From positions 33,886 through 97,885 of the forward strand of contig JAFMIA010000001.1 in the NCBI GenBank assembly GCA_017854255.1: 64,000 nucleotides of DNA, written 5' to 3'. Below are positions 53,999 through 64,000 of this stretch, piece by piece. The position numbers and the translations under genes are program-made. The notes below the pieces were generated by a model that saw only the letters and a list, made by a program, of their open reading frames with translations, did not search any database and had not been told where the DNA came from. Origin of the DNA: Pseudomonadales bacterium (lineage in GTDB: Bacteria; Pseudomonadota; Gammaproteobacteria; Pseudomonadales; Azotimanducaceae). How positions within the stretch are numbered: position 1 is the stretch's first letter; the number at the start of each line of letters is the position of its first letter.

Positions 53999-54034
53999 AG
54001 TATGGTTGTCACAGATTTAAGGGGTGAGCGATTC

Positions 54035-56731
54035 ATGTCGAGCAAGTTTAACGTAATCCTAGTAGACGGTTCATCTTACCTGTTTCGGGCTTTTCACGCT
54101 CTGCCGCCATTGGTTACATCGCTTGGGCAGCCCACGGGCGCCATCAAAGGTGTGATTAGCATGATACGGCGACTGCAATCTGATTTCCCAATGTCGAATA
54201 TTGTGGTGGTCTTTGATGCGAAGGGCAAAACCTTTCGCAACGATCTCTATCCTGACTATAAAGCCAACAGACCGCCGATGCCGGATGAGCTTCGGACACA
54301 GATTGAACCCATCCACCGGATCATCGAACAGATGGGGCTACCACTCATTGTCGAGCCAGGGGTCGAGGCCGATGATGTTATTGGCACCCTTGCTTGGCGC
54401 GCGGCGGCGGAAGGTCAGCAGGTACTGATTTCAACTGGCGACAAAGATATGGCGCAACTCGTCAACGCGAATGTGACGTTGATGAACACGATGACGGATC
54501 AGTATCTGGACGAAGCGGGGGTTGTAAGTAAGTTTGGGGTTCGACCCGACCAGATCATTGATTACCTTGCCCTGGTTGGGGATACCGTTGACAACATTCC
54601 GGGTGTTCATAAGTGTGGACCCAAGACGGCGGTTAAATGGCTTGCGACCTACGAAAGCCTTGACGGCGTGATCGCCCATGCAGACCAAATTACCGGAAAG
54701 GTCGGCGACTATTTGCGCGAAGCATTACCTCATTTACCGTTGTCTTATGATCTCGCCACGATTCGAACGGCGCTTGCGTTACCCAATGCCGGAGACTTAT
54801 TGGCGACTGCGCCGGATCTAGAAGCGCTCAGTGCGTCCTTTGAAGCCTATGAGTTGCGCGCTTGGCGTGAGGCTTTGGGCGGTGCTGCCAACGCGGAAGC
54901 CGAGGCCCTGCCTGAAGCAGTGCCAACCGATTACGATCTGGTATTAACCCAGGAGCAACTCAATATTTGGCTGGATCGCCTTGCGGCGGTTGAACGCTTT
55001 GCCTTCGATACCGAAACCACTGGGTTGAATTATATGGACGCCGAAATTGTCGGTGTTTCGATTTGCACAACGCCCGGGCAGGCAGCCTACATTCCTTTCG
55101 GGCATGATTATCCTGAGGCGCCGCAGCAATTAGAGCAATCGGATGTGCTCGATCAGCTGTCGGTGTTTCTCAACGACCCGAAGAAGCTCGTGATTGGTCA
55201 AAATTTGAAATTTGATCTGAGCATCTTGGCCCGCTACGGCCGAACGATCAATGCCCCGATCGCAGACACCATGCTTGAGTCCTACGTTTATAACAGCGTT
55301 GCGACCCGACACAATATGGATGATTTGGCTCAGAAATATTTAGGGCGCAAGACGGTGAAGTTTGATGAGATCGCGGGTAAGGGGGTTAAACAGCGCACTT
55401 TTAATCAGATCGAGCTTGAGGCCGCCGGGCATTACGCGGCTGAAGATGCGGACATTACGTTTCAGTTGCATGAGGCGCTCTGGCCGAAAATTTCGGGAGA
55501 TAACCGGTTGCTGCCGGTTTACCAAAACCTTGAAGTGCCTTTGATTCGAGTGTTGTCCCAAATTGAACGCAATGGCGTTTTGATTGATTGCAAAATGTTA
55601 GAGACGCAGTCTGAAGAAATCACCCGGGAATTGGCTGATTTAACCGTGACGGCGTTCGATCTAGCTGGAGAGACCTTTAATCTGAGTTCGCCGAAGCAAC
55701 TGCAAGCTATTTTGTTTGAAAAATTGCAATTACCGGTCCTAAAGAAAACCCCAAAGGGTCAACCTTCAACCAATGAGAGCGTTCTGCAGGAATTGGCGCT
55801 AGATTATCCCTTGCCCAAAGTGGTGATTACGCACCGGGGGTTAAGCAAGTTAAAGTCTACCTATACAGATCAGTTGCCCAAGCTTGTCAGATCTCAAAGT
55901 GGCAGATTACATACGTCCTATCAGCAAGCCGTCGCAGCAACCGGGCGGCTTTCCAGTACTGATCCGAACTTACAAAATATACCGATTCGCACGGAGGCCG
56001 GCCGCCGGGTCCGGAAGGCTTTTATTGCGCCGCCCGAGCGGTCTTTACTGGCGGCGGATTATTCCCAGATTGAGCTCAGGATCATGGCGCATTTGTCGGG
56101 CGATGAAGGCCTGACCACGGCCTTTCAGCAGGGCTTGGACATTCATCGCGCAACGGCCGCTGAAGTATTTGGCGTTGGGCTTGATGCGGTTACCCAGGAT
56201 CAGCGGCGCAGTGCTAAAGCCATTAATTTCGGGCTCATTTATGGCATGTCGGCTTTTGGGTTGTCGAAGCAGTTAGGCATTCCTCGAGTTGATGCGCAGA
56301 CCTACATGGATTTGTATTTTCAGCGCTACCCGGGAGTTCAGCGTTATATGCAAGATATTCGAGCCCAAGCCGCAGACCAAGGGTATGTTGAAACCTGGTT
56401 CGGTCGTCGCCTGTATCTGCCTGAAATTAAATCGTCTAATTTCCAAATGCGTCAAGCCGCGGAACGCACCGCGATCAATGCGCCAATGCAGGGGACGGCG
56501 GCCGATATCATCAAACGCGCCATGATTGATGTTCAGGATTGGTTGAATACCTCGAATGCGCCTGCATCGATCATTATGCAGGTTCACGATGAATTGGTTT
56601 TAGAAGTCGATGATGCGGCACTCGAAGAAACTCAGGCTGCCATCATTCGGTTAATGTGCGGTGCGGCAGAACTGAGTATTCCCCTCGAGGTTGAGGTTGG
56701 CGTTGCGAAAGATTGGGAAGGTGCGCATTAA
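54035..56731 (+). CDS. polA: DNA polymerase I
   Basis: Gap-filling and Okazaki-fragment polymerase. I prefer ATG 54035 (MSSKFNVILVDGSSYLFRAFHALPPL; GGGG about ten bases upstream) to ATG 54002. The 5'-3' exonuclease domain spans about 1-290. The 3'-5' exonuclease keeps its acidic motif FAFDTETTGLN, so proofreading should be active. Polymerase motifs A (DYSQIELRIMAHLSGD), B (RRSAKAINFGLIYGMSAFG) and C (QVHDELVLEV) are intact. 898 residues. A 700-bp non-coding region with two predicted small RNAs follows. Confidence 0.97.
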   Translation: MSSKFNVILVDGSSYLFRAFHALPPLVTSLGQPTGAIKGVISMIRRLQSDFPMSNIVVVFDAKGKTFRNDLYPDYKANRPPMPDELRTQIEPIHRIIEQMGLPLIVEPGVEADDVIGTLAWRAAAEGQQVLISTGDKDMAQLVNANVTLMNTMTDQYLDEAGVVSKFGVRPDQIIDYLALVGDTVDNIPGVHKCGPKTAVKWLATYESLDGVIAHADQITGKVGDYLREALPHLPLSYDLATIRTALALPNAGDLLATAPDLEALSASFEAYELRAWREALGGAANAEAEALPEAVPTDYDLVLTQEQLNIWLDRLAAVERFAFDTETTGLNYMDAEIVGVSICTTPGQAAYIPFGHDYPEAPQQLEQSDVLDQLSVFLNDPKKLVIGQNLKFDLSILARYGRTINAPIADTMLESYVYNSVATRHNMDDLAQKYLGRKTVKFDEIAGKGVKQRTFNQIELEAAGHYAAEDADITFQLHEALWPKISGDNRLLPVYQNLEVPLIRVLSQIERNGVLIDCKMLETQSEEITRELADLTVTAFDLAGETFNLSSPKQLQAILFEKLQLPVLKKTPKGQPSTNESVLQELALDYPLPKVVITHRGLSKLKSTYTDQLPKLVRSQSGRLHTSYQQAVAATGRLSSTDPNLQNIPIRTEAGRRVRKAFIAPPERSLLAADYSQIELRIMAHLSGDEGLTTAFQQGLDIHRATAAEVFGVGLDAVTQDQRRSAKAINFGLIYGMSAFGLSKQLGIPRVDAQTYMDLYFQRYPGVQRYMQDIRAQAADQGYVETWFGRRLYLPEIKSSNFQMRQAAERTAINAPMQGTAADIIKRAMIDVQDWLNTSNAPASIIMQVHDELVLEVDDAALEETQAAIIRLMCGAAELSIPLEVEVGVAKDWEGAH

Positions 56732-57343: not shown

Positions 57344-57434
57344 TGTTTCAGAGTTTCGACAGAAGCTTCGGTTTTCCCCATTTTCCGAAGTCTCGGACCC
57401 CGTTCGTAATCCCCATTACGAATGGGGTTTTTTT
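57344..57434 (+). ncRNA. Predicted small RNA, copy 2 (polA-engB locus)
   Basis: Same three-hairpin architecture as copy 1. Hairpin 1: GTTTC/GAAGC (57353-57366). Hairpin 2: CTTCGG/CCGAAG around a TTTTCCCCATTTT loop (57366-57390). A 13-bp terminator stem with CCCC loop follows (57398-57434). The -10 is TAATAT (57335-57340). Relative to copy 1, the terminator stem changes C-G to T-A and T-G to T-A, keeping pairing. Single-stranded C-rich loops, conserved in both copies, could pair with G-rich Shine-Dalgarno sequences. The 3' end overlaps the engB stop codon on the other strand. Confidence 0.78.
57398..57434 (+). terminator. Rho-independent terminator of sRNA copy 2
   Basis: Stem 57398-57410 with 57415-57427, one G-T wobble, loop CCCC, T-tract 57428-57434. 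It lies exactly at the convergent junction with engB, whose stop is 57433-57435. Confidence 0.88.
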
Positions 57435-58029
57435 ATGGGTCAATCGATAGCCAGCTGTCTAAAACGCTTTTTAAGGTCTCTAGCCCTTGACCGTTCGGCG
57501 CAGAAAACGTTTGCGCTTTGGCATGTTTCGGCAGGTTCGCGTTCACTTTCAGCAGCGCATTCTGTTGCGCGCCTCTCGCGAGCTTATCCGCTTTGGTCAG
57601 CAGCACATGAATGGGTAGCCCGGCGGTATGTGACCATTCCAACATCATCTCATCAAAGGGTTTGAGCGCGTGTCGGATATCGGTGAGCAGAATGACCCCC
57701 TTGAGGCTCTGCCTGGATCGAAAATAAGTGTCTAAGTGCGTTTGCCAATATTGTTTAAGCGTCAACGGGACTTTTGCATAGCCATATCCTGGTAAGTCAA
57801 CAAGCCTGGCGGTGTCTGTGATCCCAAAAAAGTTAATCAACTGGGTCCGGCCCGGTGTCTTACTGGTTCGCGCCAGTTTTTTCTGTCGGGTCAGGGTGTT
57901 GATCGCGCTTGATTTACCCGCATTAGAGCGTCCACAGAATGCGACCTCTGCCCCCTCATCAATTGGGCACTGACTCATTTGAGCGGCACTGGTTATAAAC
58001 TGAGCCGATTGATAATTGAACTGCTGCAT
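57433..58029 (-). CDS. engB: Ribosome-biogenesis GTPase EngB (YihA/YsxC)
   Basis: Essential GTPase in 50S assembly. G motifs: G1 [17 protein letters not shown]2 region [13 protein letters not shown]3 [14 protein letters not shown]4 LLTKADKL. 198 residues, normal. Located downstream of polA in convergent orientation, as in E. coli and Pseudomonas. Divergent from cytochrome c4. Confidence 0.96.
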
Positions 58030-58168: not shown

Positions 58169-58774
58169 ATGTATAAATTAATGATAACGCTCGGTTTTTT
58201 TCTTGCGAGTGCCGGCGTGCTTGCCGCGGGCGACGCAAAGCAAGGAGAGGCGCTTACAGCAACCTGTTTGGCCTGTCATGGCTCGGACGGCAACAGTCTG
58301 GCTGGAAGCTTTCCCAATATCGCAGGTCAAAATGAGGCTTATCTGTATAAGCAACTGGTTGACATTCAAACAGGCGCGCGTAGCGCTATGTTGATGACGG
58401 GTATTTTGGATGGTTTAACGCCTCAGAACCTTGAAGATTTAGCGGCTTATTATGCCGCGCAAACACCCGCACAAGGCGCAGCAGACCCGGCCTTAGTCGC
58501 GTTGGGTGAGTCTATTTACAAAGCAGGCATCGCTCGCAAGCAAGTGGCTGCGTGCACGGGTTGTCACTCACCGACGGGTCAGGGTAATGGTTTAGCGAAG
58601 TTTCCAATGTTGGCCGGTCAGTGGCCTGAATATACCGAAGCGCAATTAAAAGCTTTTCGGTCAGGCGCACGTGGTAATGATGGCGATAGCAGAATGATGC
58701 GCATTTCTGCGATGGACCTGAGCGATCCAGAAATTAAAGCGGTCGCATCCTATATTGCGGGCTTAAGACCCTAG
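58169..58774 (+). CDS. Diheme cytochrome c4
   Basis: Periplasmic electron carrier, probably donating to the terminal oxidase. A signal peptide (MYKLMITLGFFLASAGVLAAG) is followed by two class I cytochrome domains with heme sites CLACH (about residue 34) and CTGCH (about residue 130). 201 residues, normal for c4. The order engB-c4-dsbA matches Pseudomonas. Confidence 0.92.
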   Translation: MYKLMITLGFFLASAGVLAAGDAKQGEALTATCLACHGSDGNSLAGSFPNIAGQNEAYLYKQLVDIQTGARSAMLMTGILDGLTPQNLEDLAAYYAAQTPAQGAADPALVALGESIYKAGIARKQVAACTGCHSPTGQGNGLAKFPMLAGQWPEYTEAQLKAFRSGARGNDGDSRMMRISAMDLSDPEIKAVASYIAGLRP

Positions 58775-58817: not shown

Positions 58818-59456
58818 ATGAGTCAATCAATCCTTTTTCGAATGAAGCGGTTCGCTGTTGCGCCCGCGTTGATGTTTGCGCTTTTGAGTTTCGCAGCGCA
58901 GGCCGAGTACGAAGCCGGGGTCCACTACTTTGAATTGCCGACGCCGATCGCGGTGAGTGGGGATGGGATCGAAGTCACAGAGTACTTTTCCTACGGTTGT
59001 AATCACTGTTATCAATTCGAGCCAATACTGGCAGCTTGGGTTAAGACGTTGCCAGAAGACGTGACATTTAATCGAACGCCCGCAATGTGGAATCAAGGGT
59101 ACACCCTGCTGGCGCAGACTTATTACACACTGCTCGCGATGGATCTGTTGGAAACAATGCATCTTGAAGTCTTTAATGCCATTCACTTAAAACGGCAGAA
59201 TATCCGCAGCCCACAAGCAATGGCTGATTACTTGGCCAAGGTGGGCGTCGACCCATTAGCCTTCGTTAAGGTTTTTAACAGTTTCGGCGTTCAATCGAGC
59301 CTCCGCCAGGCGGACGCTCGCGGGCGTGCCTACCGGGCCACCGGCGTACCAACGATCATCGTCCATGGGAAGTATCGGATTGAAACGGCTTCTGCCGGGA
59401 GCACCCAAGGGATGTTGAAAGTCGCCGAATATCTCATCGATTTAGAACGCCAATAA
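58818..59456 (+). CDS. dsbA: Thiol:disulfide interchange protein DsbA, CNHC active site
   Basis: Periplasmic oxidase that makes disulfides in exported proteins. A signal peptide (about residues 1-30, ending ...FAAQAEYEAG) precedes a thioredoxin fold with helical insertion. The active site reads YGCNHCYQFEP, so the usual Pro of CPHC is Asn. The cis-Pro loop TGVPTIIVHGKY is normal. 212 residues. It follows cytochrome c4, whose maturation, like many exported proteins, can involve the Dsb system. Confidence 0.92.
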   Translation: MSQSILFRMKRFAVAPALMFALLSFAAQAEYEAGVHYFELPTPIAVSGDGIEVTEYFSYGCNHCYQFEPILAAWVKTLPEDVTFNRTPAMWNQGYTLLAQTYYTLLAMDLLETMHLEVFNAIHLKRQNIRSPQAMADYLAKVGVDPLAFVKVFNSFGVQSSLRQADARGRAYRATGVPTIIVHGKYRIETASAGSTQGMLKVAEYLIDLERQ

Positions 59457-59471
59457 CGCAGCGAGCAACGA

Positions 59472-61022
59472 ATGCCGGTTTGGCAGTCTGAAGACGTCCG
59501 AGAGGCTGATGAGGCGGTTCTCGGTGTCGCAACGACCGAGATTAGCACGCACCTGTTTTTAACGCCGATCGCGGCGATAGACCATTGGGCTGGGCGTAAT
59601 CCTCAGGCGAGCTGCCTCATCGCTGAGGCGGTAGAACTCTCTTATGAGCAGGTTGCTCAACTGACGCGTGCGCTGGCAGCGGAGTTTAAAGCGCGCGGGG
59701 CTCGCTCCGGTGACCGCGTCGTCCTCGAGTTAGAAAACGGTTTGGGGGTTGTCTTAAGTTTTCTGGCGCTCAACCGGTTGGGCGCCGCGGCCGTCATCGT
59801 GAGCCCCAGACTATCCGAGTTTGAGCGGCAAAAAATTGTGAGTCATGCCCTACCAATTGCGGTTATCACGGCGATCTCACCGCCGAATTGTGACCTGTTG
59901 CAATCTGCATTAACGACGAAGGTGCTGACCACTCTAGGGCTTGTCTGGTCTGATGACGGCGCCGCTGGGCCGCTTGATCGAGCGCAGTACCCGCTTGCGG
60001 CGAATGTCGCCGCGATGATTTATACAACGGGCACGACGGGTGAGCCTAAAGGCGTCATGCTTACCCACCAAAATCTGATGTTTACTGGGTTCGTATCGGG
60101 GAAGTTGCGCGGTCTTGGCGAAGCCGACCGGGTGTTAACAGCCCTGCCCTTATCCCATGCGTTTGGATTATCAGCCGTGCTGTGTTCTGTCCTGACGCAA
60201 GGCGCAAGCCTCGAGTTAATGGCGACATTTTCGGCAACCGGGGTCTTGGCGCGTCTGGGTGATGGCGCCGTAACGGGGTTTCTGGGTGTGCCTGCGATGT
60301 ATACCCAGCTGATCAGTGCTGATAGGGACAACGCTTTGAACTACCCTTTTCTGCGCTTCTTGTTTTCAGGTGGCGCGCCGCTTGACCCAACGTTAAAAAA
60401 AACAGTCGAGACGCGGTTCGGTTTGCCGTTGCATAACGGCTATGGTTTGACAGAGTCAGGGCCCACCATAGCCCAGACCCGACTCTATGCCCCGTTGGAC
60501 GACACCTCGGTTGGTTTCGTGATCCCAGGCGTGGACTATCAGATTGTTGGCGCTTCAACCTCAGAAGAGGGTATTGGCGAACTCAAAGTTCGAGGCCCCA
60601 ATATCATGGCGGGCTACTATCGAAATCAGGCGCAGACGGATCAGGTGTTAATCGACGGTTGGCTAGCAACCGGAGACCTCGCTCGGATCAATGTATCTGG
60701 CGCGCTTGAGATTGTAGGACGCATTAAAGAACTCATTATTAAAAACGGTTTCAACGTTTATCCTCCTGAAGTGGAAGCAGCTTTGCTCAGGTTGCCAGAG
60801 ATTATTCAGGCGGCGGTTATTGGGCAGGCGGTGCCGGGCAATGAAAGAATTATTGCCTTTGTACAAACGAGCGCATCCAAGGTTGACCTTGGTTGGATCA
60901 ATCAACAACTAAGGTCCACTTTGGCAGGTTATAAGTTACTGGATGAAATCCGAGTGGTGGATCAGTTACCAGCCGCGCCCTCGGGAAAAATTCTAAAGCA
61001 TCGACTTGCTGATTTGTTGTAA
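59472..61022 (+). CDS. Acyl-CoA synthetase-like AMP-dependent ligase
   Basis: 516-residue class I adenylate-forming enzyme. Motifs in order: P-loop IYTTGTTGEPKGVMLTH (about 180), A5 NGYGLTESGP, A7 GWLATGDLARI, A8 GRIKELIIKNGFNVYPPEVE, and the C-terminal catalytic Lys in PSGKILKHRL. No carrier or reductase domain is attached. It probably activates a carboxylic acid as acyl-CoA; the substrate cannot be told. No strong ribosome binding site. This gene is not in the corresponding Pseudomonas neighbourhood as I know it. Confidence 0.85.
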   Translation: MPVWQSEDVREADEAVLGVATTEISTHLFLTPIAAIDHWAGRNPQASCLIAEAVELSYEQVAQLTRALAAEFKARGARSGDRVVLELENGLGVVLSFLALNRLGAAAVIVSPRLSEFERQKIVSHALPIAVITAISPPNCDLLQSALTTKVLTTLGLVWSDDGAAGPLDRAQYPLAANVAAMIYTTGTTGEPKGVMLTHQNLMFTGFVSGKLRGLGEADRVLTALPLSHAFGLSAVLCSVLTQGASLELMATFSATGVLARLGDGAVTGFLGVPAMYTQLISADRDNALNYPFLRFLFSGGAPLDPTLKKTVETRFGLPLHNGYGLTESGPTIAQTRLYAPLDDTSVGFVIPGVDYQIVGASTSEEGIGELKVRGPNIMAGYYRNQAQTDQVLIDGWLATGDLARINVSGALEIVGRIKELIIKNGFNVYPPEVEAALLRLPEIIQAAVIGQAVPGNERIIAFVQTSASKVDLGWINQQLRSTLAGYKLLDEIRVVDQLPAAPSGKILKHRLADLL

Positions 61023-61252: not shown

Positions 61253-62782
61253 ATGGCTAAGATTCTGGATGATATTTCACGAACGTTTGGTGAGTACTTA
61301 TTGCTGCCGAGGCTGACGCGTCGTGATCAGCATATCGATCGGATCGATTTATCAGCGCCCTTATCGCGGTCTCTTGACGGCGCACCGGGGTCTCTTTCGA
61401 TCAACATTCCCATTGTTTCAGCCTGTATGCAGGCGGTATCTGGTGTCGATCTAGCGGTCGCACTCGCCCGTCAGGGGGGAATGAGTATGATTTTCTGCTC
61501 GCAAAGCATCGAAAGTCAGGTTGAGATGGTTCAAAAGGTGAAGGCTCACAAAGCGGGTTTTGTTGTGAGTGGCGCCAACATCCAGCCTGACGCAAGTTTG
61601 CAAGCGGTGCTCGAGTTGATGACGCGTAGCGGACACTCGACCATTCCAGTTACCCTTGATGGGTCGTCCGAAGGCGAATTTCTGGGTTTGATTACTGATC
61701 AAGATTTCTGGGAATTTGAAGACGATCTTCAGAACCTGGTAAAAGACCACATGACGCCGAAAGCAGAGGTTATTTTTGGCGTTGAAGGGATCTCTCTTAG
61801 AGAGGCCAATCGGCTTCTGCATCGTCACAAGAAGGATTGCTTACCAATTTTAACGGCCACAGGTCATTTGTCGGCTTTGGTTTTCAAGAAAGATTATGTT
61901 GATCACCAGAAGCACCCCCTTGAGTTATTGGACGAGGGTAAGCGTTTACGAGTCGGCGCGGCGATTAATACCCACGACTACCAGCAGCGCGTGCCGGCAC
62001 TGGTGGCCGCAGGCGCGGACGCTTTGTGCTTTGACTCCTCCGATGGCTTCACGGAGTTTCAGATGGATGGCTTGGCTTGGATCAGAGCGCAGTATGGATC
62101 TGAGGTCGTTATTGGCGGCGGCAACGTTGTTTCCGCAGAGGGTTTTGATTATCTCGCGTTGTCAGGGCTGGTGGATTTCATCAAGGTTGGTATTGGCGGT
62201 GGTTCAATCTGCATTACGCGGGAACAAAAGGGGATTGGCCGAGGTCAGGCCTCGGCTCTGCTCGAGGTCGTTGCCCGTCGCGATGCGTATTTTGAAGAAA
62301 CCGGGGTCTATATTCCCATTTGTTCAGATGGTGGTCTGGCGAACGACACGCAAGTCGTTATGGCTTTGGCGATGGGCGCGGACTTCGTCATGATGGGGCG
62401 CTATTTTGCGATGACGGAGGAAAGCCCAACCTCAAAAATATCGATCAACGGGCAGATGTATAAACCCTACTGGGGTGAAGGGACTGTCAGGGCCCAAAAT
62501 TGGCAGCGTTACAGCGAAGGCATGAGTAGTCGAAAGATGATGTTCGAAGAAGGTGTTGATGCGTTCGTGCCCTTGATCGGCTCAACGTCAGAAGTCTTAG
62601 AGACCACGTTGCACAAGCTTAAAAGCACCATGATTAATCTCGGGGCAGACTCGGTAAAGACGTTTACAGATCAAGCAATCATTACTTTGGTGTCTGAACA
62701 ATCGATTGTTGAGTCTGGAACATCGAATGTTTTCAAGTTCTCTGGGAATCGCGATCTCGATGAATCTGACTGGGGCAACTAG
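61253..62782 (+). CDS. guaB: IMP dehydrogenase, divergent Tritrichomonas-like type
   Basis: Oxidises IMP to XMP, the first step to GMP. 509-residue TIM barrel with an inserted CBS pair (about 105-225). The catalytic loop is GIGGGSICITREQKGIGRGQ with Cys320, unlike the GPGSICTTR loop of typical bacterial GuaB. The flap has NWQRY (Arg419-Tyr420). This loop, the numbering (T. foetus Cys319, Arg418-Tyr419) and segments such as YFEETGVYIPICSDGG and YWGEG match the T. foetus-type enzyme. The product call is firm; using the name guaB for this divergent type is my choice. AGGAG precedes the ATG. No guaA nearby. Confidence 0.88.
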   Translation: MAKILDDISRTFGEYLLLPRLTRRDQHIDRIDLSAPLSRSLDGAPGSLSINIPIVSACMQAVSGVDLAVALARQGGMSMIFCSQSIESQVEMVQKVKAHKAGFVVSGANIQPDASLQAVLELMTRSGHSTIPVTLDGSSEGEFLGLITDQDFWEFEDDLQNLVKDHMTPKAEVIFGVEGISLREANRLLHRHKKDCLPILTATGHLSALVFKKDYVDHQKHPLELLDEGKRLRVGAAINTHDYQQRVPALVAAGADALCFDSSDGFTEFQMDGLAWIRAQYGSEVVIGGGNVVSAEGFDYLALSGLVDFIKVGIGGGSICITREQKGIGRGQASALLEVVARRDAYFEETGVYIPICSDGGLANDTQVVMALAMGADFVMMGRYFAMTEESPTSKISINGQMYKPYWGEGTVRAQNWQRYSEGMSSRKMMFEEGVDAFVPLIGSTSEVLETTLHKLKSTMINLGADSVKTFTDQAIITLVSEQSIVESGTSNVFKFSGNRDLDESDWGN

Positions 62783-62833: not shown

Positions 62834-63241
62834 ATGAAAAAACTGCTAATGCTGCCATTTGCTTTCATTTCCTTCCTCGTTTTTGCGGGGCCGATAGAAG
62901 ATGAAATTATTGCTCGTATCCACCAACCGGGCGCGGTTTGTCTTCAAGGTGAGGCATGCGCATCGGCACAAGTGATGTCGGTCGCAAGTACTGGTTCTGA
63001 AAGCCCGGATGCGATTTACAAGCGAAGCTGCGCAACTTGTCATGATTTAGGTATCGCTGGGGCGCCTGCCTTGGCCAATGTCGAGCAATGGGCGCCTCGA
63101 CTTGAAAAAGGCATGGAGACACTCTACGCCAGTGGTATCAATGGGCTTGCGCCAGCCATGCCGGCACGCGGTATGTGCTTTGATTGCTCAGATGACGATA
63201 TCCGAGCCGTTGTTGATTATATGACGGCGTCTGTTCAGTAA
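62834..63241 (+). CDS. Cytochrome c5-type protein
   Basis: 135-residue exported monoheme cytochrome. Signal peptide MKKLLMLPFAFISFLVFA, heme site YKRSCATCHDLGIAGAPAL (about residue 70), and a second Cys pair in ARGMCFDCSDDDIRAVVDYM, the pattern of the c5 family (methionine ligand in PAMPARG). It probably carries electrons in the periplasm to oxidases. It is convergent with comM, 16 nt apart. Confidence 0.9.
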   Translation: MKKLLMLPFAFISFLVFAGPIEDEIIARIHQPGAVCLQGEACASAQVMSVASTGSESPDAIYKRSCATCHDLGIAGAPALANVEQWAPRLEKGMETLYASGINGLAPAMPARGMCFDCSDDDIRAVVDYMTASVQ

Positions 63242-63257: not shown

Positions 63258-64000
63258 TTAGTTTTGCCGAAGCATTAAGGCTTCTTCTAGGTGCCTGCGC
63301 GAGATGGTTTCGGCGCAGTCAAGGTCAGCAATGGTTCGGCCAACCCGAATTAACTTTTGAATGGCTCGGGCTGAAAAATGCAAGGTTTGAGCGGCTTTCA
63401 TTAAAAGCAGTTTTGCATCGGGGTCCAGCGCGTTTTTGTCGGTCTGCTGAGGGCTGGTCTGCAATCTTTTCAGTCTGAAAGCGCGTGCTTGTTTGATCTG
63501 ATCGATCGCGGCGTCATGCTCATGGCGATGGCGGGTTGGGGCTTCCTGAAAAAATTTTTTTGGATCCAGTGCTGGGACTTCAACCTGAAGGTCAATTCGG
63601 TCCAGAATAGGTCCTGAAACCCGATTTCGATATCGCGTAATGTGCTCAACCGAACATCGACACGGCCTGCGACTGCCTAGCCATCCACAAGGACAGGGGT
63701 TCATGGCAGCGATCAATTGGAAATTTGCAGGAAATCGCACTTTGTAATGTGCCCGGCTCAGATCGATACTGCCACTTTCAAGGGGTTGCCTGAGCTGGTT
63801 GAGCACCGCGTGGGTAAATTCTGGTAACTCGTCCAACAGCAAGACGCCAAGATGAGCCAACGTAATTTCGCCGGGCCTCGGCGGGCTGCCGCCGCCGATG
63901 AGTGCCGCAGCAGAGGTTGAATGGTGCACCTCGCGGAAGGGCCGCTCGAGCGTTGGCCCCGGTAAAGATCCCGCAGTGACCGATTGAATACACGCAATCT
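63258..64000 (-). CDS. comM: Mg-chelatase-like ATPase ComM (C-terminal part)
   Basis: Partial gene; the frame runs off the window edge (upstream residues ...ERPFREVHHSTSAAALIGGG). AAA+ Mg-chelatase-family helicase that promotes branch migration in natural transformation. Visible motifs: LDELPEFTHAVLNQLRQPLESG (Walker B and beyond), AAMNPCPCGW, the Cys-rich CRC segment, ISGPILDRIDL-like VSGPILDRIDLQVEVP, and the C-terminal Mg_chelatase domain ending AETISRRHLEEALMLRQ. With dprA in the same window it suggests competence. Confidence 0.93.
   Translation of the reverse strand, partial: IACIQSVTAGSLPGPTLERPFREVHHSTSAAALIGGGSPPRPGEITLAHLGVLLLDELPEFTHAVLNQLRQPLESGSIDLSRAHYKVRFPANFQLIAAMNPCPCGWLGSRRPCRCSVEHITRYRNRVSGPILDRIDLQVEVPALDPKKFFQEAPTRHRHEHDAAIDQIKQARAFRLKRLQTSPQQTDKNALDPDAKLLLMKAAQTLHFSARAIQKLIRVGRTIADLDCAETISRRHLEEALMLRQN

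Follow-up and report, generated by a model that had tools for sequence, protein, structure and literature searches.

A T. foetus-type IMP dehydrogenase in the window

The window, by which we mean the whole stretch of 64,000 nucleotides that was analysed, contains an intact open reading frame (ORF) that begins with ATG and encodes a protein of 509 amino acids (Table 1). The protein belongs to the IMPDH/GMPR superfamily (Pfam PF00478, 314.5 bits against a threshold of 25.6, with the nucleophilic cysteine in the loop) and scores 711.7 bits on NF005493 (PRK07107), above the cut-off of 585, with residues 1 to 496 aligned to positions 1 to 494 of 502. Although this model is titled only "IMP dehydrogenase," we read it as describing the enzymes of the type known from Tritrichomonas foetus. 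On TIGR01302, the model of the canonical bacterial IMP dehydrogenase (IMPDH), the protein reaches 340.3 bits, below the cut-off of 481.5; the canonical guaB of a relative reaches 630.6 bits. Among solved structures, the best match is the T. foetus IMPDH (1ak5, 539 bits, residues 1 to 494 to 1 to 492), followed by Listeria Lmo0132 (8ebc, 424 bits, in two stretches), and the top canonical bacterial chain reaches 237 bits. A single Pfam CBS match covers residues 110 to 151.

Table 1. Features of the IMPDH gene and its neighbourhood (positions in the window)
Feature	Position	Strand	Basis
polA, conserved upstream neighbour	54002..56731	+	neighbourhood comparison
engB/yihA-like GTPase, conserved neighbour	57433..58029	-	Pfam: 50S ribosome-binding GTPase
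cytochrome c4-like gene, conserved neighbour	58169..58774	+	neighbourhood comparison
dsbA-like gene, last broadly conserved gene upstream of the insertion site	58818..59456	+	neighbourhood comparison
AMP-binding (acyl-CoA synthetase-like) gene, between dsbA and the IMPDH gene in only part of the carriers	59472..61022	+	
T. foetus-type (PRK07107/NF005493) IMP dehydrogenase, the genome's only full IMPDH	61253..62782	+	ORF, profile and structure matches
Bateman region (CBS pair), residues about 102-222, borders approximate	61556..61918	+	Pfam CBS match, column counts
catalytic loop GIGGGSICITRE, residues 313-324, nucleophile Cys320	62189..62224	+	ORF translation, structure match, alignment
mobile-flap motif NWQRY, residues 416-420 (Arg419-Tyr420)	62498..62512	+	ORF translation, structure match, alignment
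cytochrome c5-like gene, first gene downstream of the IMPDH gene	62834..63241	+	neighbourhood comparison
comM-like gene (Mg-chelatase subunit ChlI family), cut by the window end	63258..63998	-	neighbourhood comparison

A reading of the sequence alone had proposed a T. foetus-like IMPDH at this position. The NF005493 score, the top structure match and the separation from canonical GuaB in a phylogeny (described below) bear this out, and we regard it as confirmed that the ORF encodes a full-length T. foetus-type IMPDH and not an ordinary gammaproteobacterial GuaB. The sequence-only reading had also picked out the catalytic loop, the flap and a residue numbering shifted by one from the parasite enzyme. 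Alignment to T. foetus IMPDH agrees on each point: Cys320 corresponds to Cys319 and Arg419-Tyr420 to Arg418-Tyr419, and Glu433 corresponds to Glu431, with an offset of two.

For a wider comparison, genome contigs were scanned for relatives of the enzyme. The best 80 of 421 loci comprise 52 that are proteobacterial by title (Pseudomonadales, Gammaproteobacteria, Proteobacteria, OM182, K189A or SAR86; hereafter the gammaproteobacterial carriers) and 28 others. The positions of T. foetus Cys319, Thr321, Arg418, Tyr419 and Glu431 are invariant in all 52 gammaproteobacterial rows among these best 80 of 421. In the same 52 (of the best 80 of 421), the loop has G and I at the two positions where nine of nine canonical sequences have P and T, respectively.

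The window gene is the only full IMPDH of its genome

GuaB is needed for making guanine nucleotides. The genome from which the window comes is 98.4% complete, 0.61% contaminated and divided into 163 contigs. A PF00478 search of this genome returned one full IMPDH match, the window gene, and no second full IMPDH, the next-best match scoring 42 bits; a second guaB in this genome was rejected on this result. The genome has guaA, on another contig. Since there is no second IMPDH, the GMP pathway would depend on the window gene, unless the cell obtains guanine by salvage alone.

Across 206 genomes of the window's family, most genomes surveyed here being MAGs, an IMPDH match (E ≤ 1e−50) is found in 188. 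Fifty-nine match NF005493 at E ≤ 1e−100 (58 above the cut-off; the match in G159 is a fragment), and 58 of these 59 have exactly one IMPDH match at E ≤ 1e−50. The other 129 have the canonical type only, including G081, G089, G102 and G137, whose matches are fragments with a per-position score of the canonical kind. Genome G089, at first read as a carrier by E-value, has a canonical gene split over two contigs (317.8 bits over 210 positions) and no NF005493 match. Carriers of the T. foetus type fall in 11 of the 37 genera of the family, and no genus is mixed, save for genome G070 and for genomes without any IMPDH match. When only the 128 genomes that are at least 90% complete and at most 5% contaminated are considered, 126 have an IMPDH, which is of the T. 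foetus type in 33. Outside the family the type is rare: four of 390 genomes in a sample of the order exceed the NF005493 cut-off, all four from the window's family, and the only one of 398 sampled Pseudomonadota genomes with the T. foetus type is the window's own.

The remaining 18 of the 206 genomes have no IMPDH at E ≤ 1e−50, and seven of them (G006, G095, G103, G125, G156, G168 and G192) still had none when searched again at E ≤ 1e−20. We read these cases as probable assembly gaps. Genomes G125 (98% complete) and G156 (93%) have neither IMPDH nor guaA at E ≤ 1e−20; they may have lost guaBA and depend on guanine, or these genes may lie in an assembly gap.

Genome G070 holds both IMPDH types and two guaA genes. 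In the GuaA phylogeny, the copy on the contig with canonical guaB groups with G027 of another family (f4) (support 98/88), and the other copy groups with carrier G022 (92/56). This split points to contamination, although it is not absolute proof of it, and G070 was rejected as a living intermediate with both genes.

The carriers form one clade and share one insertion site

In a GuaA tree (53 of 54 rows, after G012 was dropped for having fewer than 350 aligned residues), all 19 rows labelled as carriers fall together in a single clade (100/99), which also includes G168 and the second G070 copy. A quick PolA tree of 29 rows, from which two genomes of the order (G028 and G029) were left out because the stretch fetched from them contained no PolA, likewise places 19 carriers in one clade (SH-aLRT 99).

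The surroundings of the gene are also shared. We take the GTPase, the two cytochromes and the Mg-chelatase-family gene of Table 1 to be engB, cytochromes c4 and c5, and comM, respectively. At least two of polA, engB, cytc4, dsbA, cytc5 and comM surround the IMPDH gene in all 52 gammaproteobacterial loci among the best 80 of 421, and this neighbourhood occurs in none of the 28 other loci of the same best 80 of 421, two of which have just a 26% match to the AMP-binding gene. In the OM182-like records among the 52 (62 to 64% identity), dsbA lies directly upstream of the IMPDH gene. In the canonical members of the family, the stretches read retain polA-engB-cytc4-dsbA and contain no IMPDH gene (six of six). 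Terminator-like sites numbered 6 against 2.7 expected from shuffled sequences, and promoter-like sites showed no excess (2 found, 2.3 expected from shuffles).

guaB is missing from the xseA-guaA region

Canonical proteobacterial IMPDH genes lie beside guaA. In this analysis guaB adjoins guaA in five of five regions from canonical relatives, with xseA on its other side in four of the five. The IMPDH gene of the carriers, unlike canonical guaB, stands apart from guaA, and none of the 22 guaA regions read in the carrier clade contains guaB. Of these regions, 21 come from carriers and one from G168, itself without an IMPDH match. In 11 of the 22, a distance of 72 to 341 bp separates the aligned end of xseA from that of guaA; in three, the window's own genome included, xseA is on the same contig at 1.6 to 6.7 kb from guaA, and in eight it is outside the stretch read. 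The absence of guaB and the closeness of xseA and guaA suggest that guaB was removed cleanly from an xseA-guaB-guaA arrangement, and other genes appear to have entered the gap later in some genera.

The sequence-only reading had offered two roles for the window gene: it could replace the normal guaB or serve a second function beside it. It had also proposed looking for a standard guaB beside guaA. With no further full IMPDH in the window's genome and no guaB in any of the 22 clade guaA regions, this search favours replacement, as does the single IMPDH per carrier genome, and contradicts a second role, because the genome holds no other full IMPDH.

Two side observations concern the guaA regions. 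At the place that guaB occupies in canonical relatives, the genome of the window has about 6 kb, containing several ORFs, that separate xseA from guaA (L173, G000:C79, 1723-7900), and one of these ORFs is weakly NodU-like (166.9 bits, far under the cut-off of 1000 bits). In two canonical genomes (G116:C13 and G173:C55), two or three separate guaA matches were seen, which are perhaps broken genes or assembly errors.

Relationship to the enzymes of Fibrobacterota and T. foetus

Pairwise identity to the window protein is 63% for a Fibrobacterota sequence (L089), 63% for a sequence of the OM182 clade (L088), 52% for T. foetus and 30% for the canonical type. Fibrobacterota IMPDHs among the best 80 of 421 matches are about 58 to 65% identical to it over nearly the full length. 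We examined these relationships in a tree of 53 chosen rows, comprising 20 of the 53 gammaproteobacterial sequences (the 52 loci and the window), 19 of the 28 other loci and 14 further sequences. In this tree, which includes protist and bacterial types as the sequence-only reading had advised, the window protein groups with the T. foetus type, from which the canonical rows are separated at 100/100. The 20 gammaproteobacterial rows group as a single clade (100/100), and the branch that holds it consists otherwise of Fibrobacterota and a few other records. The nesting of this clade inside Fibrobacterota is weak (86/58), and a constrained tree that held together 15 Fibrobacterota rows, a Myxococcota-labelled row and two others was not rejected (p-AU 0.205). 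A donor nested inside Fibrobacterota is thus unestablished, and Fibrobacterota are the nearest relatives among the matches listed, not a proven source.

The T. foetus type is the sole IMPDH match (E ≤ 1e−40) in 24 of 26 non-gammaproteobacterial carrier genomes, most of them Fibrobacterota by title; since these genomes were picked as carriers (26 of the 28 loci), the count is silent on how many Fibrobacterota lack the type. One of the remaining two adds a canonical gene (G599, locus L113), and the other a further match of about 259 bits. From the distribution more than from the nesting, the best reading would be a transfer from a Fibrobacterota-like lineage into a gammaproteobacterial ancestor. 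Plasmid and phage records give only relatives below 60% identity, and a phage or plasmid origin was rejected.

The gene had also been thought informative about the bacterial donor of the parasite gene, and this is unsupported. T. foetus IMPDH groups with those of Listeria (Lmo0132), Monoglobus and Subdoligranulum (100/99), with Parabacteroides next (99/96), and the gammaproteobacterial clade sits on the Fibrobacterota-dominated branch. The identity of T. foetus to these bacterial enzymes is 68 to 79% (Subdoligranulum 70%, Monoglobus 68%, Parabacteroides 68%, Lmo0132 79% over 281 residues), against 52% to the window protein. Given this grouping and these identities, the gammaproteobacterial gene says little about the donor.

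Related genes were seen in two other settings. Two large genomes from other families of the order (L190, G520:C29, and L191, G451:C4, read in L268 and L267) have a canonical guaB and a divergent PRK07107-like copy (432 to 444 bits, below the cut-off), which is about 40% identical to all others and has Gln at the Arg322 position. In both genomes this copy is transcribed divergently from a LysR-type regulator gene, and it may be an inducible or resistance IMPDH. On a plasmid of Streptomyces sp. NBC_00582 (L320, 7998-9491), a T. foetus-type IMPDH gene lies about 1.4 kb from asnB, which adjoins an amino acid adenylation (NRPS-type) gene, suggesting possible self-resistance in a biosynthetic cluster.

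Probable replacement of guaB through a single gain and a single loss

One carrier clade, one shared neighbourhood and the missing guaB together point to one gain and one loss that replaced an essential gene. We propose, with a probability of about 0.92, that the ancestor of the clade acquired a T. foetus-type gene, which is now the sole IMPDH, and then lost guaB. The point of entry of the gene would be the interval from dsbA to the cytochrome c5 gene, and it would have come from a lineage to which, among the matches listed, Fibrobacterota are the nearest sampled relatives. After this gain, guaB would have been lost from the xseA-guaB-guaA stretch, and both events look ancestral to the clade. 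Judged by its family and catalytic residues, the enzyme would oxidise IMP to XMP with NAD+, and GuaA would turn XMP into GMP.

Other histories fit less well. The spread of the T. foetus-type family over several phyla could reflect an ancient paralogue of early Pseudomonadota, which is very unlikely given that the type is found in one of 398 Pseudomonadota genomes and four of 390 from the order, all four of the window's family, so that very many losses would be needed. Several independent acquisitions within the family, to which the patchy list of 11 carrier genera among 37 might point, are just as improbable: the GuaA and PolA trees recover one carrier clade and reject genus-level patchiness as a mark of many transfers, the gene rows form one clade (100/100), and the site is common to them. 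Bacteria with two IMPDHs do exist, as in G451 and G520 from other families (canonical and divergent copies) and G599 (canonical and T. foetus type together), and the window gene could be such a second enzyme with a special role, its normal guaB having been missed in assembly. We give this slightly less credence still, as 58 of 59 family carriers have exactly one IMPDH match (E ≤ 1e−50), 33 of the 59 are at least 90% complete and at most 5% contaminated, and a missed guaB is at odds with its absence from 22 of 22 clade guaA regions.

Two further alternatives are the least probable. GMP reductases share the active-site Cys, Thr and Glu (according to the excerpt of PMC2525682 consulted), and their models match the window protein weakly. 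It is extremely improbable that the protein is a GMP reductase, because those matches are far under the cut-offs, the best model is the IMPDH equivalog NF005493, the flap Arg419-Tyr420 pair is present (and invariant in the 52 gammaproteobacterial rows of the best 80 of 421), and the genome is otherwise without an IMPDH. The window does come from a 163-contig assembly, and the family includes an apparently contaminated genome (G070); that the gene or its contig derives from another organism is nonetheless barely conceivable, as the same arrangement among gammaproteobacterial genes recurs in 52 of 52 loci (of the best 80 of 421) and PolA of the same loci tracks the host clade.

Predicted change in the control of the enzyme

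Canonical proteobacterial IMPDH is controlled by an ATP/GTP switch at the Bateman domain. In Pseudomonas aeruginosa IMPDH, R136, K181 and R198 hold the phosphates of ATP and GDP and D137 and D199 lie at the riboses, and in the Escherichia coli enzyme the corresponding D-to-N changes abolish inhibition by GTP and GDP (excerpts of PMC9462843). We located these positions by a hand count of P. aeruginosa residues on the chain alignment. The two conserved aspartates are kept in the window protein (D151 and D214), and the equivalents of D137 and D199 are retained in 52 of 52 gammaproteobacterial carriers (of the best 80 of 421 matches). The equivalent of K181 is Cys in all 52 carriers (C196 in the window; of the best 80 of 421) and Lys in nine of nine canonical sequences; the R136 position, Arg in the same nine, is Gln in 32, Lys in 16, Arg in 3 and Asn in 1 of the 52 (of the best 80 of 421). 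The window protein has Gln at the R136 position and Lys at the R198 position. T. foetus IMPDH has Arg at the R136 position and Ala at the K181 position.

Because a nucleotide contact of the regulatory domain is replaced by Cys in 52 of 52 carriers (of the best 80 of 421), altered feedback control is predicted; a different ligand or binding mode is also conceivable. We consider it possible, if somewhat doubtful, that the swap of guaB also changed the control of guanine nucleotides, in that the enzyme may not respond to the ATP/GTP switch, or may respond to a different ligand. If so, a whole bacterial clade would run the GMP pathway without the usual feedback. The replacement offers a natural setting in which to ask whether IMPDH can do without feedback by GTP.

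Significance and comparison with known IMPDHs

A clade of uncultured Gammaproteobacteria thus appears to rely on a type of IMPDH known from T. foetus and also present in Fibrobacterota, its normal GuaB being lost. The enzyme joins an already known family. The unusual feature is that an essential gene was exchanged so cleanly: the place where the new gene entered and the closed-up site from which the old one disappeared can both be read, with guaB-keeping relatives as a control. To our knowledge, cases in which a distantly related foreign gene supplants an essential housekeeping gene seldom retain the traces of both events, and searches of open-licence PMC papers turned up no title or abstract that describes a guaB replacement of this kind. 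The comparison also sets the origin of the parasite enzyme, whose nearest relatives here are from Firmicutes and Bacteroidota, apart from its gammaproteobacterial look-alike. Inhibitors tuned to canonical bacterial IMPDHs might act differently on such lineages.

With T. foetus IMPDH (1ak5), the window enzyme shares a full-length alignment, the loop GGGSICITR, the NWQRY flap and the Cys, Thr, Arg, Tyr and Glu positions. It differs in that Arg241 and Trp269 of the parasite enzyme are His and Phe in the window, identity is 52%, and the parasite enzyme groups with those of Listeria and Clostridia rather than with the gammaproteobacterial rows. Canonical GuaB (TIGR01302; P. aeruginosa IMPDH) has in common with it the PF00478 catalytic core and the two Bateman aspartates, whereas identity is about 30% and the canonical loop is GPGSICTTR. 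The PRK07107/NF005493 IMPDHs of Fibrobacterota resemble it in usually being the only IMPDH match of the genome (E ≤ 1e−40; 24 of 26 non-gammaproteobacterial carriers searched, most of them Fibrobacterota by title), and differ in that the neighbouring genes conserved in Gammaproteobacteria are all missing from around theirs.
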